Below, piece by piece: positions 55,664 to 60,163 of a stretch of 64,000 nt of DNA. Numbering within the stretch: the first letter of the stretch is position 1; every line of letters starts with the position of its first letter. Under the pieces are notes generated by a model. That model searched no databases and was not told the DNA's origin. It worked only from the letters and a program-made list of their open reading frames with translations. The DNA comes from Cellulomonas hominis (GTDB lineage: Bacteria > Actinomycetota > Actinomycetes > Actinomycetales > Cellulomonadaceae), in NCBI RefSeq assembly GCF_014201095.1, contig NZ_JACHDN010000001.1, forward strand, positions 4,092,001 to 4,156,000, read 5' to 3'. The translations under genes and the position numbers were made by a program.

Positions 55664-56902
55664 TCAGGCCTCGTGCAGCACCCGGCCGCCGCCCAGCACG
55701 AGGGCGCGCGGCGGGGTGCGCACGAGGGCGTCCATCGGGTTCTCGGCGTCGAGCAGCACGAGGTCCGCCCGGGCGCCGGGCACGAGGTCGTGCCGCTCGC
55801 GGCCGACCGCCCATGCGCCCTTGCTCGTGGCGGCCTCGACCACGCGGAGCAGGTCCTCGTCGCGGACGAGGCTGCTGGCGCGGGCGAGCTGCCACGCGAT
55901 GCCGAGGGTGTCCCCCGTGCCGTAGGGGCTCCACAGGTCGCGGATGCCGTCGGTGCCGAGCCCGAGGCGCACCCCGGCGGCGTCGAGCTCCGCGACGGGC
56001 AGCTGCGGGAGCCGGAGCGGCGCCACCGTCGTCATCGACATGCCCACGGCCCCCATCGCGGCGAGCAGGTCCGCCCGGCGCGCGTCCGGCAGCTGGGCGA
56101 CTGCGAAGCCGTGCGCGAGGTTGACCTTGCCGTGCAGGCCCAGCAGCTCGGCCCGCTCGACGAGCAGCTCCACCTGGAACGCGCCGAGCTCCGCCGGGTC
56201 GTGCAGGTGCACGTCCACGCCGACGCCGTGCTCCGCCGCCAGCGCCAGCACCGCGTCCACCTGGCCGACCGGGTCGCGGTCGATCGTCGCCGGGTCGAGG
56301 CCGCCGACGTGCTCGGCGCCCGCCCGGGCCGCGTCGTGGAGCAGGTCCAGGACGCCGGGGCGGCGCAGGACCCCGTCCTGCGGGAAGGCCACCACCTCGA
56401 CGTGCAGCGCGCCCTCGTACGCCGCGGCGGCCTCCCGGACCGCCTCGATGCCGCGCAGCCCGACGCCGAGGTCGACGTCCACGTGCGAGCGGATCGCGGT
56501 GGTGCCGTGCCGGACCATCTCCGCGAGCACGGCGGCGGTCGTCGCGACGCCGGGGATGCCGAGCTCGTCGCGCCGCGCCCGCTCGTGGCGGATCCGGCCG
56601 TCGGTGCCGCCCTCGCCGCCGTAGGACTGCCACGGCAGCCCCCACCAGGACTTGTCGACGTGCGCGTGCGCGTTCACCACGCCCGGCAGCGCGAGCAGGC
56701 CCCGGCCGTCCACGACCGCGTCGGCGGGGACGTCGTGCGGCACCGGCTCGACGCCGGCCGGGGTCAGGTCCGTGACGACGCCGTCGGCGACGTGCACGTC
56801 CACGGCCGGGCCGCCCCAGGGGCGGACGTCGCGCACCAGGCGCACGGGACGGAGGGACGGCAGCGGGGCGGGCTCGGTACGCACGCGTCCATCCTCCGTC
56901 AC
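55664..56902 (-). CDS. Amidohydrolase, cytosine-deaminase-like
   Basis: 412 residues, GTG 56902. TIM-barrel amidohydrolase. Metal residues: LPGVVNAHAHVDKSWWGLPW (HxH), RSHVDVDLGVGLRG, VDVHLHDPAELGAF, AHGFAVAQL, and GLGTDGIRDLWSPYG (Asp). Last part PGARADLVLLDAENPMDAL is the beta-sandwich. This resembles CodA-type cytosine/isoguanine deaminases and related enzymes; the substrate is not certain. Divergent from the trp leader, with its start 24 bp from the leader ATG. Confidence 0.86.
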   Translation of the reverse strand: MTEDGRVRTEPAPLPSLRPVRLVRDVRPWGGPAVDVHVADGVVTDLTPAGVEPVPHDVPADAVVDGRGLLALPGVVNAHAHVDKSWWGLPWQSYGGEGGTDGRIRHERARRDELGIPGVATTAAVLAEMVRHGTTAIRSHVDVDLGVGLRGIEAVREAAAAYEGALHVEVVAFPQDGVLRRPGVLDLLHDAARAGAEHVGGLDPATIDRDPVGQVDAVLALAAEHGVGVDVHLHDPAELGAFQVELLVERAELLGLHGKVNLAHGFAVAQLPDARRADLLAAMGAVGMSMTTVAPLRLPQLPVAELDAAGVRLGLGTDGIRDLWSPYGTGDTLGIAWQLARASSLVRDEDLLRVVEAATSKGAWAVGRERHDLVPGARADLVLLDAENPMDALVRTPPRALVLGGGRVLHEA

Positions 56903-56912
56903 GCGGAGGGGG

Positions 56913-57006
56913 TAGGTTGTCCGCCATGTCCGCGTCGCAGACCTCGTGGTGGCCCGCCTCCTAGGCGGACCTCGACGCGTCGACGACCGCCCTGACCGGT
57001 GGTCGT
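56913..57006 (+). promoter_or_regulatory. trp leader / attenuator region
   Basis: TAGGTT at 56913-56918 is a possible -10, 7 nt before the leader ATG, suggesting a leaderless transcript. After the leader peptide (two consecutive Trp codons at 56947-56952) a strong hairpin lies at 56983-57006: ACGACCGCC pairs with GGTGGTCGT (8 WC pairs and one G-U), loop CTGACC. No U-run follows. The layout fits transcription attenuation controlled by Trp-tRNA supply, for the fused synthase gene at 57056. Confidence 0.65.
56926..56964 (+). CDS. trpL: Trp-codon leader peptide (TrpL-like)
   Basis: 12 codons reading MSASQTSWWPAS then TAG. Tandem TGG codons at positions 8 and 9, one per GC-rich window of sequence where Trp is rare, mark it as a sensor of charged Trp-tRNA. 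A GGAGG-like RBS (GGAGGGGG near 56905-56912) also precedes it if the transcript begins further upstream. The attenuator hairpin lies 19 nt after the stop. Short for general annotation, but the Trp pair and the downstream gene support it. Confidence 0.75.
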   Translation: MSASQTSWWPAS

Positions 57007-57055
57007 GCGGCGGGAGCGTCCGGACGGGTGCCGGTCCCGACCCGGAACGGCTCCC

Positions 57056-58900
57056 ATGACGACTCTCCTCGACTCCCTCCTGACCGACGACAGCACGCCG
57101 TTCGCCGTGCTGCGCCGCGAGGGCTCCCCCGTGCTCGACGTCCTGACCGGCGACGTGGCCGACGTCGACCGGCTGGCCGACATCCCGCTGGACGGCGGCA
57201 CCGTCCTCGCCCTCGTGCCCTTCCGGCAGGTGCACGAACGCGGGTTCGCCGCCCACGACGACGGGGCGCCGCTGCGCTGCCTGCGGGTGCGGCACCACGA
57301 GCGGGTGCCGCTGGCCGACGCGCTGGCCGTGCTGCCGCCGGTCCCCGTGCCGCTCGAGGCCCACGGGTTCGACGTCGACGACGCGACGTACGCCGAGCGG
57401 GTGCGGACCGTCGTCGACGACGAGATCGGCCGCGGCGAAGGGGCGAACTTCGTGCTGCGGCGCGACTTCGTGGCCACCACCACCGCGGCGTCCGGGACCG
57501 CCGTGCTCGGCTGGCTGCGGGCGCTGCTGGAGCAGGAGCAGGGCTCGTACTGGACGTTCGCGCTGCGCACGCCGGGGCTCGCCGCGGCCGGGGCGACCCC
57601 GGAGCGGCACGTCAGCGTCGCCGGCGGCGTCGCGCGGATGAACCCGATCAGCGGCACGTTCCGGCACGGGGAGCGGCCGCCCACCGGGGCCGAGCTGCTC
57701 GCGTTCCTCGCGGACGGCAAGGAGAGCGACGAGCTCTTCATGGTCGTCGACGAGGAGATGAAGATGATGAGCGCCGTCTGCCCCGACGGCGGGCGGATCC
57801 TCGGGCCGTACCTCAAGCAGATGTCCCGGCTCACGCACACCGAGTACGTGCTGGAGGGCCGCACCGGCCTCGACGTCCGCGAGGTGCTGCGCCTGACGAT
57901 GTTCGCGCCGACCGTCACCGGGTCGCCGATGGGCAACGCGTGCGCGGTGATCGCCCGGCACGAGACGACGCCGCGCGGGTACTACTCCGGCGTCCTCGCG
58001 CTGTTCGAGCCGGACGGCGACCGGTACGCGCTCGACGCGCCGATCCTCATCCGCACGGCGTACCTCGACGGTGCGGGCCGGGTGACCGTGCCGGTCGGGG
58101 CGACGCTGGTCCGGCACTCGACCGCGGCGGGCGAGGTGGCGGAGACGCACGCGAAGGCCGCGGGGGTGCTCACGGCGCTCGGCCTGCTGCCGCGCGCCGC
58201 GTCGGGGGACGGTCCCGCCCCGCGGCTCGCCGAGGCACCCGGGGTCGCGGCGGCGCTGGCCGCGCGGAACGACCGGCTGGCGTCGTTCTGGCTGCGGCCG
58301 CAGGGCGCCGGGGCGGCGCGCGCGGGCGGGCGGACGGCGCTGGTCGTGGACGCCGAGGACCAGTTCACGACGATGCTGGCGCACCAGCTCCGGCACCTCG
58401 GCCTGGCGGCGCGCGTCGTGCCGTGGGACGCGGTCCCGGCGGACGCGGACGTGGACGCCGACCTGCTCGTGCTCGGCCCGGGGCCCGGCGACCCGCGACA
58501 GCCGGGCGACCCGCGGATCGCCCGGCTGCGGGCGCTGCTGGGCCGGCGGCTCGCGACGGGGGCGCCGACGCTGGCGGTGTGCCTCAGCCACCAGGTGCTC
58601 GCGCTCGAGGCGGGCCTCGCGGTCGAGCCGCTGCCCGCCCCGCGGCAGGGCCTCCGGCTGGAGGTCGACGTGTTCGGCGAGCCCGCCGCGATCGGGTTCT
58701 ACAACACGTTCGCCGCGCGGGTCGCCCCCGGCACGGTCCGGACGCCCCGGCACGGCCTCGCGGTGTCGGCCGACGCGACGGGTGTCGTGCACGCCCTGCG
58801 GGGCCCGGGGGTCGCGTCCGTGCAGGGGCACCTGGAGAGCGTGCTGTCCTCCGACGGGCTCGCGACGCTGGACCGGCTGGTCACGCCGCTGCTGGGGTGA
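57056..58900 (+). CDS. Fused anthranilate synthase (TrpE-TrpG, PhzE-like)
   Basis: 614 residues. Residues about 95-400 are a TrpE/PhzE-type chorismate-using domain (GATPERHVSVAGGVARMNPISGTFRHGE, then ESDELFMVVDEEMKMMSAVCPDGGRIL, PTVTGSPMGNACAVI). From about 430 a class I glutamine amidotransferase: LVLGPGPGDPRQPGDPRIARL, TLAVCLSHQVLALEAGLAVEPL (nucleophile Cys), GHLESVLS (His-Glu). Chorismate plus glutamine give anthranilate, or in PhzE the 2-amino-2-deoxyisochorismate. A trp leader peptide and attenuator upstream argue for tryptophan synthesis. dinB follows 30 bp downstream. Confidence 0.87.
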   Translation: MTTLLDSLLTDDSTPFAVLRREGSPVLDVLTGDVADVDRLADIPLDGGTVLALVPFRQVHERGFAAHDDGAPLRCLRVRHHERVPLADALAVLPPVPVPLEAHGFDVDDATYAERVRTVVDDEIGRGEGANFVLRRDFVATTTAASGTAVLGWLRALLEQEQGSYWTFALRTPGLAAAGATPERHVSVAGGVARMNPISGTFRHGERPPTGAELLAFLADGKESDELFMVVDEEMKMMSAVCPDGGRILGPYLKQMSRLTHTEYVLEGRTGLDVREVLRLTMFAPTVTGSPMGNACAVIARHETTPRGYYSGVLALFEPDGDRYALDAPILIRTAYLDGAGRVTVPVGATLVRHSTAAGEVAETHAKAAGVLTALGLLPRAASGDGPAPRLAEAPGVAAALAARNDRLASFWLRPQGAGAARAGGRTALVVDAEDQFTTMLAHQLRHLGLAARVVPWDAVPADADVDADLLVLGPGPGDPRQPGDPRIARLRALLGRRLATGAPTLAVCLSHQVLALEAGLAVEPLPAPRQGLRLEVDVFGEPAAIGFYNTFAARVAPGTVRTPRHGLAVSADATGVVHALRGPGVASVQGHLESVLSSDGLATLDRLVTPLLG

Positions 58901-58915
58901 GTGTCGGACGTCGGG

Positions 58916-58931
58916 TCGAACATGTGTTCCA
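58916..58931 (+). promoter_or_regulatory. LexA (SOS) box overlapping the dinB start
   Basis: TCGAACATGTGTTCCA matches the actinobacterial LexA consensus TCGAAC-N4-GTTCGA at all but one of the 12 consensus positions. Its last base is the A of ATG 58931. A repressor here would block initiation from a promoter at this point and the message would be leaderless or nearly so. Strong motif. Confidence 0.8.
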
Positions 58932-60163
58932 TGCCGACCGACCTCCCGCCGCGCGCCGGGATCCTGCACGCCGACCTCGACGCGTTCTACGCCTCCGTCG
59001 AGCAGCGGGACGACCCCCGGCTGCGCGGCCGGCCGGTCGCGGTCGGCGGCGGGGTCGTCCTCGCGGCGTCGTACGAGGCGAAGCGCCGCGGTGTGCGGAC
59101 GGCGATGAGCGGGCGGCAGGCGCGGTCGCTGTGCCCCGGGCTCGTGGTGGTGCGGCCGCGGTTCGACGCGTACGTCGCGGCGAGCCGGGCGGTGTTCGCG
59201 ATCTTCGAGGACACCACGCCGGCCGTGCAGGGGGTGTCCATCGACGAAGCGTTCCTCGACGTGCGCGGGCTGCACCGCATCGACGCCCCGCCCGTCGACC
59301 TCGCCGCGCGGCTGCGCGCCCGGATCCGGACCGAGGTCGGGCTGCCGATCACCGTCGGCATCGCGCGGACGCCGTTCCTCGCGAAGGTGGCCAGCCGGGT
59401 CGCGAAGCCCGACGGCCTGCTCCTGGTCGACCCGCGGCGCGAGGACGCGTTCCTGCACCCGCTGCCGCTCGAGGTGCTGTGGGGCGTCGGCGACGTCACC
59501 GCCGCGAAGCTGCACGCGTACGGGCTCGCGACCGCCGGGGACGTCGCCGCGCTCCCGCAGCAGGTGCTCGTGTCCGCCCTCGGCCCCGCGATGGGCCGGC
59601 ACCTGCACGCCGTCGTGCACGGCCGCACCCCCGACCTGGTCGAGACCGGCCGGCGACGGGGATCGGTCGGCGCGCAGCGGGCGCTCGGTCCGGGGCCGCA
59701 CGACCCGGAGCACGTGCGGGCGGCGCTGCTGGGGCTGGTGGACCGGGTGTGCCGGCGGATGCGCGCCGGGCACCGGCTCGCGCGCACGGTCGTGCTGCGG
59801 CTGCGGTTCGCGGACTACACGAAGGCCACGCGGTCCCGGTCCTTCCCGCACGCCACCGCGACGGGCGCGTCCCTCGCGGCCGCCGCCGCGGCGCTGCTCG
59901 CCGAGGCCGGGCCGCTGATCCGCGAACGCGGGCTGACCCTCGTCGGCGTCGCGCTCACCGGCCTGGAACGGGACGACCACTGGCAGCCGACGCTCGACCT
60001 CGACGGACCCGACACGACCGGCCTCGACGGACCCCACACGACCGGCCTCGACCTCGCGGTCGACGCCGTCGCGGAGCGGTTCGGGTCCGGGGCGGTCGTC
60101 CGGGGCGCGCTGCTCCGGCACGGTGCCGGGCTGGAGATGCCGACGCTCCCCGACCCGGGCTGA
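58931..60163 (+). CDS. dinB: DNA polymerase IV (Y family)
   Basis: 410 residues from ATG 58931 (alternative GTG 58901 would place the start before the LexA box, unlikely). Y-family palm/fingers: ILHADLDAFYASVEQRDDPRL, VLAASYEAKRRGVRTAMSGRQA, VSIDEAFLDVRGL (catalytic Asp-Glu), FLAKVASRVAKPDGLLLVDP, and the little-finger domain RSFPHATATGA. The C-terminal linker carries the duplicated LDGPDTTG / LDGPHTTG. It performs translesion synthesis, induced by SOS. No beta-clamp motif was certain. Confidence 0.92.
   Translation: MPTDLPPRAGILHADLDAFYASVEQRDDPRLRGRPVAVGGGVVLAASYEAKRRGVRTAMSGRQARSLCPGLVVVRPRFDAYVAASRAVFAIFEDTTPAVQGVSIDEAFLDVRGLHRIDAPPVDLAARLRARIRTEVGLPITVGIARTPFLAKVASRVAKPDGLLLVDPRREDAFLHPLPLEVLWGVGDVTAAKLHAYGLATAGDVAALPQQVLVSALGPAMGRHLHAVVHGRTPDLVETGRRRGSVGAQRALGPGPHDPEHVRAALLGLVDRVCRRMRAGHRLARTVVLRLRFADYTKATRSRSFPHATATGASLAAAAAALLAEAGPLIRERGLTLVGVALTGLERDDHWQPTLDLDGPDTTGLDGPHTTGLDLAVDAVAERFGSGAVVRGALLRHGAGLEMPTLPDPG

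Follow-up and report, generated by a model that had tools for sequence, protein, structure and literature searches.

A trp attenuator of Streptomyces venezuelae was reportedly described by Lin et al. in 1998, and a 2020 paper by Canestrari et al. is said, by its title, to treat mycobacterial leaderless polycysteine sORFs as amino-acid-responsive attenuators. Trp attenuators with poly-U tracts were predicted in Corynebacterium and Streptomyces (PMC1262725). For Streptomyces lividans, the available text of another study describes trpL1, which encodes MFAHSTRNWWWTAHPAAH upstream of a monocistronic trpE, is leaderless and is followed by two hairpins and a U-rich stretch (PMC8079986). Among titles and abstract beginnings in the open-licence PMC literature, we found no description of such a switch in Cellulomonas or the Micrococcales. 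Judged from sequence comparison, the system described here is a homologue of the known Streptomyces trpL1-trpE attenuator. It was found in the window, that is, the whole stretch of 64,000 nucleotides of Cellulomonas hominis DNA that was analyzed, and has the following features and neighbors.

55664-56881 (start at 55664 or 55667), reverse strand: amidohydrolase, neighbor of the fused gene
56913-56918, forward strand: -10 element TAGGTT, ending 7 nt 5' of the leader ATG, from which transcription would be leaderless
56926-56964, forward strand: leader peptide ORF, ATG at 56926, 12 codons reading MSASQTSWWPAS, stop codon TAG at 56962-56964 (sequence and comparison across relatives)
56947-56952, forward strand: tandem Trp codons TGG TGG (WW), putative stall site (kept in 64 leaders, the motif itself being the criterion by which they were chosen)
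56953-56958, forward strand: segment 1, CCCGCC, the codons after WW, with segment 2 as partner (alignment, helix 1:2)
56963-56968, forward strand: segment 2, AGGCGG, beginning within the stop codon, with segment 1 or 3 as partner (alignment)
56972-56983, forward strand: small hairpin TCGA-CGCG-TCGA within the 2:3 antiterminator of the Cellulomonas clade (predicted fold)
56983-57006, forward strand: terminator hairpin, arms ACGACCGCC and GGTGGTCGT, 9 bp, 6-nt loop, one G-U pair
56983-56991, forward strand: segment 3, ACGACCGCC, 5' arm of the terminator, with segment 2 or 4 as partner (alignment)
56998-57006, forward strand: segment 4, GGTGGTCGT, 3' arm of the terminator, the next 10 nt being without T (alignment, helix 3:4)
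57056-58900, forward strand: fused synthase with chorismate-binding and class-I amidotransferase domains, 614 aa, PhzE type, start codon ATG at 57056 (Pfam PF00425 and PF00117; PhzE 3r74)
58901-60163, forward strand: Y-family polymerase of dinB type, neighbor of the fused gene

The best explanation for this locus, to which we give a probability of roughly 0.8, is a Trp-sensing, ribosome-mediated transcription attenuator on a leaderless mRNA, placed before what is likely a second anthranilate synthase. An open frame of 1485 aa also spans the fused gene in antisense (positions 55664-60121 of the window, reverse strand), which is probably an effect of the high GC content.

Conservation of the leader and its promoter

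The relatives compared were the best 80 of 104 genome matches fetched. Within 350 nt upstream of the gene, 63 of these 80 carry a TGGTGG mini-ORF that stops within 30 nt, whereas among random 350-nt pieces drawn from these loci, 21 of 4462 (0.5%) do. Including the window, this gives 64 leaders with 54 distinct peptides, many of them from close kin and thus not 64 independent cases. Six to 10 codons precede WW, and the stop codon is TAG in 61 leaders, TGA in two and TAA in one. For one leader (L052), the TGGTGG picked first was wrong and was replaced by hand. The genera represented include Cellulomonas, Cellulosimicrobium, Agromyces, Rathayibacter, Microbacterium, Plantibacter, Promicromonospora, Myceligenerans, Arthrobacter, Brevibacterium, Brachybacterium, and others.

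With the starts as a script first chose them, 58 of the 64 leaders have a TAnnnT motif at a distance of 6 to 7 nt from the leader start, and all 64 have it once six starts (L017, L018, L055, L058, L068, and L072) had been moved by hand to other in-frame starts with the pattern already known; the background at all ATG and GTG codons of the same loci is 140 of 25023 (0.6%). A simple scan found no -35 match for the window promoter. SD-like tetramers were absent before the leader start in all 64 leaders, with either a short or a long tetramer list. Among the 31 loci in which the match opens with a start codon, 24 have such a tetramer ahead of the enzyme start (22 with the short list). The prediction that the leader mRNA is leaderless is strongly supported by the spacing of the motif, and S. 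lividans leaderless genes have the same kind of -10 element in the available part of their description (PMC8079986).

RNA segments and the hairpin without a U-run

After removal of identical stretches, 58 distinct leaders of the 64 were aligned, revealing a common pattern: CCGCC after WW (segment 1), GGCGG from within the stop codon (segment 2), CCGCC in the 5' arm (segment 3), and GGCGG in the 3' arm (segment 4). With helices 1:2 and 3:4 together, 91.9% of cells are paired, dropping to 28.5 to 56.9% when the partners are slid, and five pairs show two-sided changes. The covariation score of this arrangement was reached by none of 500 shuffles, and its nine cells with two-sided changes by 37 of 500. 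The terminator stem 3:4 (alignment columns 59-68/84-93) is conserved and covarying, with 96.2% pairing and three pairs with two-sided changes; helix 1:2 has 84.8% of cells paired and two such pairs. RNAalifold recovered 3:4 and did not find 1:2 on the same alignment. The antiterminator helix 2:3 is conserved as well (90.2% of cells paired), showing no two-sided change and doing no better than shuffles in the 58-leader alignment; covariation is not expected of segments that have two partners, which is no proof.

The comparison across genomes supports the Trp leader peptide and the 9-bp attenuator hairpin, both of which the sequence-only reading had placed at the positions listed above. By that reading, a WW mini-ORF not conserved in related genomes would have counted against it; the mini-ORF recurs in the relatives counted above (63 of the best 80 of 104), and the terminator stem covaries. 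The possible -10 element at 56913, proposed in the same reading to make the leader mRNA leaderless, likewise gains support from the motif spacing across leaders.

In folding energy, the window leader has only a mild advantage over shuffles (z from -1.75 to -2.23), and the hairpin stretch taken alone has a z of -1.33; the case rests on conservation and not on folding energy. When transcripts are cut after segment 3, helix 2:3 forms at -11.6 to -16.2 kcal/mol with the ribosome on WW, and -1.7 to -5.4 kcal/mol remains with the ribosome at the stop codon (six of six leaders in both states). Full-length equilibrium folds contain the 3:4 hairpin in both ribosome states, meaning that the choice must be kinetic, made during transcription.

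We infer the following course of events, from the start of the transcript to ribosome stalling, termination and the direction in which Trp exerts control. RNA polymerase would start at or beside the A of the leader ATG, and a ribosome would translate MSASQTSWWPAS without a Shine-Dalgarno sequence. With ample charged Trp-tRNA, the ribosome would reach the UAG and cover segment 2, the 3:4 hairpin would form, and transcription would end. With charged Trp-tRNA in short supply, the ribosome would stall on UGG UGG and cover segment 1, 2:3 would pair, and the fused synthase would be transcribed. The fused enzyme would most likely act as a self-sufficient second anthranilate synthase for low Trp, besides the canonical TrpE. 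One order-level locus (L123) is a counter-case, having the hairpins and a single Trp codon (NWR).

Two variations of the RNA were seen in particular loci. In L047 and L049 (Microbacterium), the 1:2 stem seems by eye to be kept in a shifted register, CTCACCG/CCCACCG versus CGGTGAG. In L007, L008, L009, and L063, a stretch such as GACCACCCGG 3' of the terminator is complementary to arm 4, over 10 bp in L008 and L009, and is a possible fifth segment in the Cellulomonas clade.

The U-run, a feature of classical Trp attenuators, is absent after the window hairpin. In the window and the four relatives closest to it (five of five), the 10 nt that follow the terminator hairpin hold no T, which casts doubt on the terminator of these five; the other 59 leaders have 2 to 7 T there. 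U-runs may be scarce throughout this genome, since a simple scan of 60 kb of the window gave 3 terminator-like sites with a U-tract, versus about 3.8 in shuffles. The missing U-run is a possible variant feature of the Cellulomonas clade, new here.

Could the leader in this clade control translation of the synthase instead, with folds that open or hide the ribosome-binding site and no premature termination? The lack of a U-run in all five members would suit such a switch, as would the GC-rich pairing that the folds show around the enzyme start. Positions -12 to -5 are also slightly more open with 2:3 forced than with 3:4 forced in all five (0.25 versus 0.19 in the window; 0.47 to 0.49 versus 0.37 to 0.38 in the other four), but the wider stretch from -15 to +3 behaves in the opposite way in the same five (0.29 versus 0.42 in the window). 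Forced folds gave values for 36 of the 64 leaders: 8 gave none, their segment motif being inexact, and 20 with at least 135 nt between the stop codon and the matched start were left out. The matched position was not the start codon in 9 of the 36; among the 27 hence counted, the stalled state is more open in 2, equal in 3 and less open in 22 over the wider stretch, and more open in 9, equal in 2 and less open in 16 over the narrow one. These differences are small and mixed, and the relatives keep their U-rich tails (59 of 59), which makes control of translation unlikely as against attenuation of transcription.

The fused synthase and the spread of the switch

The fused gene had been read from the sequence alone as the tryptophan anthranilate synthase of this bacterium. 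This is not supported, because the genome encodes a canonical TrpE and a TrpG/PabA apart from the fused gene. The other TrpE scores 766.1 bits with NCBIfam NF010086 (canonical TrpE; cut-off, 693), has TrpC and TrpA nearby, and is accompanied by a PLP-dependent enzyme between those trp genes, taken as TrpB; trpD and the separate TrpG/PabA are sited elsewhere in the genome. The fused protein reaches 84.4 bits with the same model, below its cut-off. Separate TrpE chains match the catalytic part of the fused protein only, at about 44 to 52 bits, and its best solved structure is PhzE 3r74 (residues 5 to 610, 520 bits). Judged from sequence, the fused gene encodes an additional, PhzE-type enzyme, most probably another anthranilate synthase (TrpEG). 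The FILES motif of TrpE, which we take to mark the Trp feedback site, and the region around it are absent from the 13 fused sequences aligned with canonical TrpE (two of them isochorismatase-linked), and the fused enzymes may have lost Trp feedback. A leader before the canonical trpE was ruled out, as the 1 kb scanned there contains no mini-ORF with two Trp codons. For Streptomyces coelicolor, several trpE genes are named in the available part of one source (PMC5036795).

A PhzE-like ADIC synthase of secondary metabolism, in place of an anthranilate synthase, would agree with the full-length match to PhzE 3r74, and protein sequence cannot separate anthranilate from ADIC activity, according to the available part of PMC5958127. 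The surroundings of the gene make this quite improbable, however. Three copies in the genus (L113 to L115, 50 to 52% identity) form a branch of their own, whose join with L172 is doubtful in the FastTree output with its warning of long branches; they have no TGGTGG in the 400 nt upstream and lie directly 3' of a gene that is an isochorismatase in L113 (PF00857) and reads alike in L114 and L115. The window gene has as neighbors the amidohydrolase on the other strand and the dinB-type polymerase, and a Trp leader fits a Trp enzyme. Furthermore, a review describes the fused enzyme of S. venezuelae as an anthranilate synthase that is monomeric (PMC5897657). The polymerase neighbor occurs in L007, L008, L009, and L063 only, among the 80 loci (best 80 of 104).

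In its own genome, the covariance model of the switch matches the window site only (E, 7.5e-8); the next best match has an E of 0.62 and was rejected as a second copy. Within the genus, 6 of 81 genomes have a model match, and within the order 55 of 396 sampled genomes do, a sample that perhaps includes some of the species on which the model was trained. At an E of ≤1e-60, the fused gene is present in 9 of the 81 genus genomes, six of them (own included) with at least 81% identity and three with 50 to 52%, and the covariance matches and the close fused gene coincide in the same 6 genomes. Among 29 order-level loci (L116 to L144, which leave out 25 further order-level model matches), 26 stand before a fused-gene homologue, the exceptions being L136, L139, and L140. 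L136 (minus strand) has a WW leader, followed by hairpins of the same pattern, at about 1500 on the turned strand, before the tryptophanyl-tRNA synthetase gene trpS at 495-1454. This downstream gene scores above the trpS cut-off, and L139 reads alike; both belong to one genus (f13 g24). A known parallel is trpL2-trpS of S. lividans, as given in the available text of PMC8079986.

In the class sample, 16 other genomes of the order carry the fused gene; 15 of them have a model match and one (G130) has none. Across the class, a relative of the fused gene is present in 147 of 394 genomes. The upstream regions of 33 class loci were read, and WWW was found in 8 of 9 loci of group f37 and 1 of 1 of f22, and WW in 13 of 13 of f38 and 1 of 1 of f53. 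Two of four loci read in f45 have a WW ORF, neither convincing, and no WW or WWW leader was seen upstream in the loci read from f35 (three), f36 (one), and f17 (one). The f37 genomes, with leaders such as MFAHSTQNWWWTAHPAAH, have fused-gene relatives of about 50 to 54% identity and are taken to be Streptomyces from this type of leader peptide. Rfam 15 gave no match at or above the gathering score in window positions 56500-57300 (four sub-threshold, chance-like matches) and nothing at the leader in 18 further loci, with one cobalamin riboswitch away from the leader.

A chance mini-ORF and hairpin in GC-rich DNA, which the mild advantage of the window leader over shuffles would allow, has practically no likelihood in view of the 63 of 80 relatives (best 80 of 104) versus 0.5% of random pieces, the fixed promoter spacing and the stem covariation.

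The remaining 17 of the 80 relatives (best 80 of 104), from Ornithinimicrobium, Serinicoccus, Ornithinicoccus, and Kytococcus, have no leader. They make up one side of a single branch in a 97-row tree (FastTree; L085 left out as too short), with leader-bearing f38 and f22 rows opposite. As leader-bearing rows lie outside the clade, the leader was probably lost rather than gained. The looser motif NAnnnT stands 6 to 7 nt before the enzyme's own start in 16 of the 17, the exception being Kytococcus L066 (background before all ATG of the loci, 530 of 8036), so a promoter seems to drive the enzyme directly in this clade. We tentatively put forward a joint reading as a possibility. The Cellulomonas-clade attenuator, whose hairpin would have lost its U-run entirely, may end transcription by the hairpin alone, need a protein factor or have shifted to translation, and Ornithinimicrobiaceae and kin may have lost leader and hairpins in one step, a promoter of the same type now letting the enzyme mRNA begin right at the enzyme's start codon.

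Comparison with known systems

These results extend the Streptomyces leaderless Trp attenuator to Microbacteriaceae, Promicromonosporaceae, Cellulomonadaceae, Brevibacteriaceae, Dermabacteraceae, and Micrococcaceae, and a covariance model is now available for a leader that matches no Rfam 15 family in the scanned loci. The WW leader offers a regulatory mark: it accompanies lone fused synthases, and the three copies next to isochorismatase-like genes lack it.

The fused protein shares its domain order and full-length similarity with the ADIC synthase PhzE (PDB 3r74); unlike PhzE, the window gene has a Trp leader upstream and no isochorismatase-like neighbor seen. The mycobacterial polycysteine attenuators reportedly have a leaderless short ORF, as the present switch probably does, and concern another amino acid and other genes. 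Corynebacterium trp attenuators likewise combine a Trp-rich leader with alternating antiterminator and terminator segments; as far as the available part of the source goes, they belong to a multi-gene operon and have poly-U terminators, whereas the window has a lone fused gene and no U-run (PMC1262725).

With S. lividans trpL1-trpE (SLIV_27122/27120), as presented in the available text, the window shares a tandem-Trp leader, a lone gene for an anthranilate synthase (a probable one in the window) and hairpins between them (PMC8079986). The leaderless transcript was reported there from RNA-seq and is here predicted from motif spacing. The window leader has WW and not WWW, and 12 and not 18 codons, and its clade is without the U-rich stretch that follows the terminator in S. 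lividans. New here are this hairpin without a U-run in the Cellulomonas clade and the single leader-less clade with a promoter-like motif at the enzyme start, two natural experiments on the change and decay of such switches.
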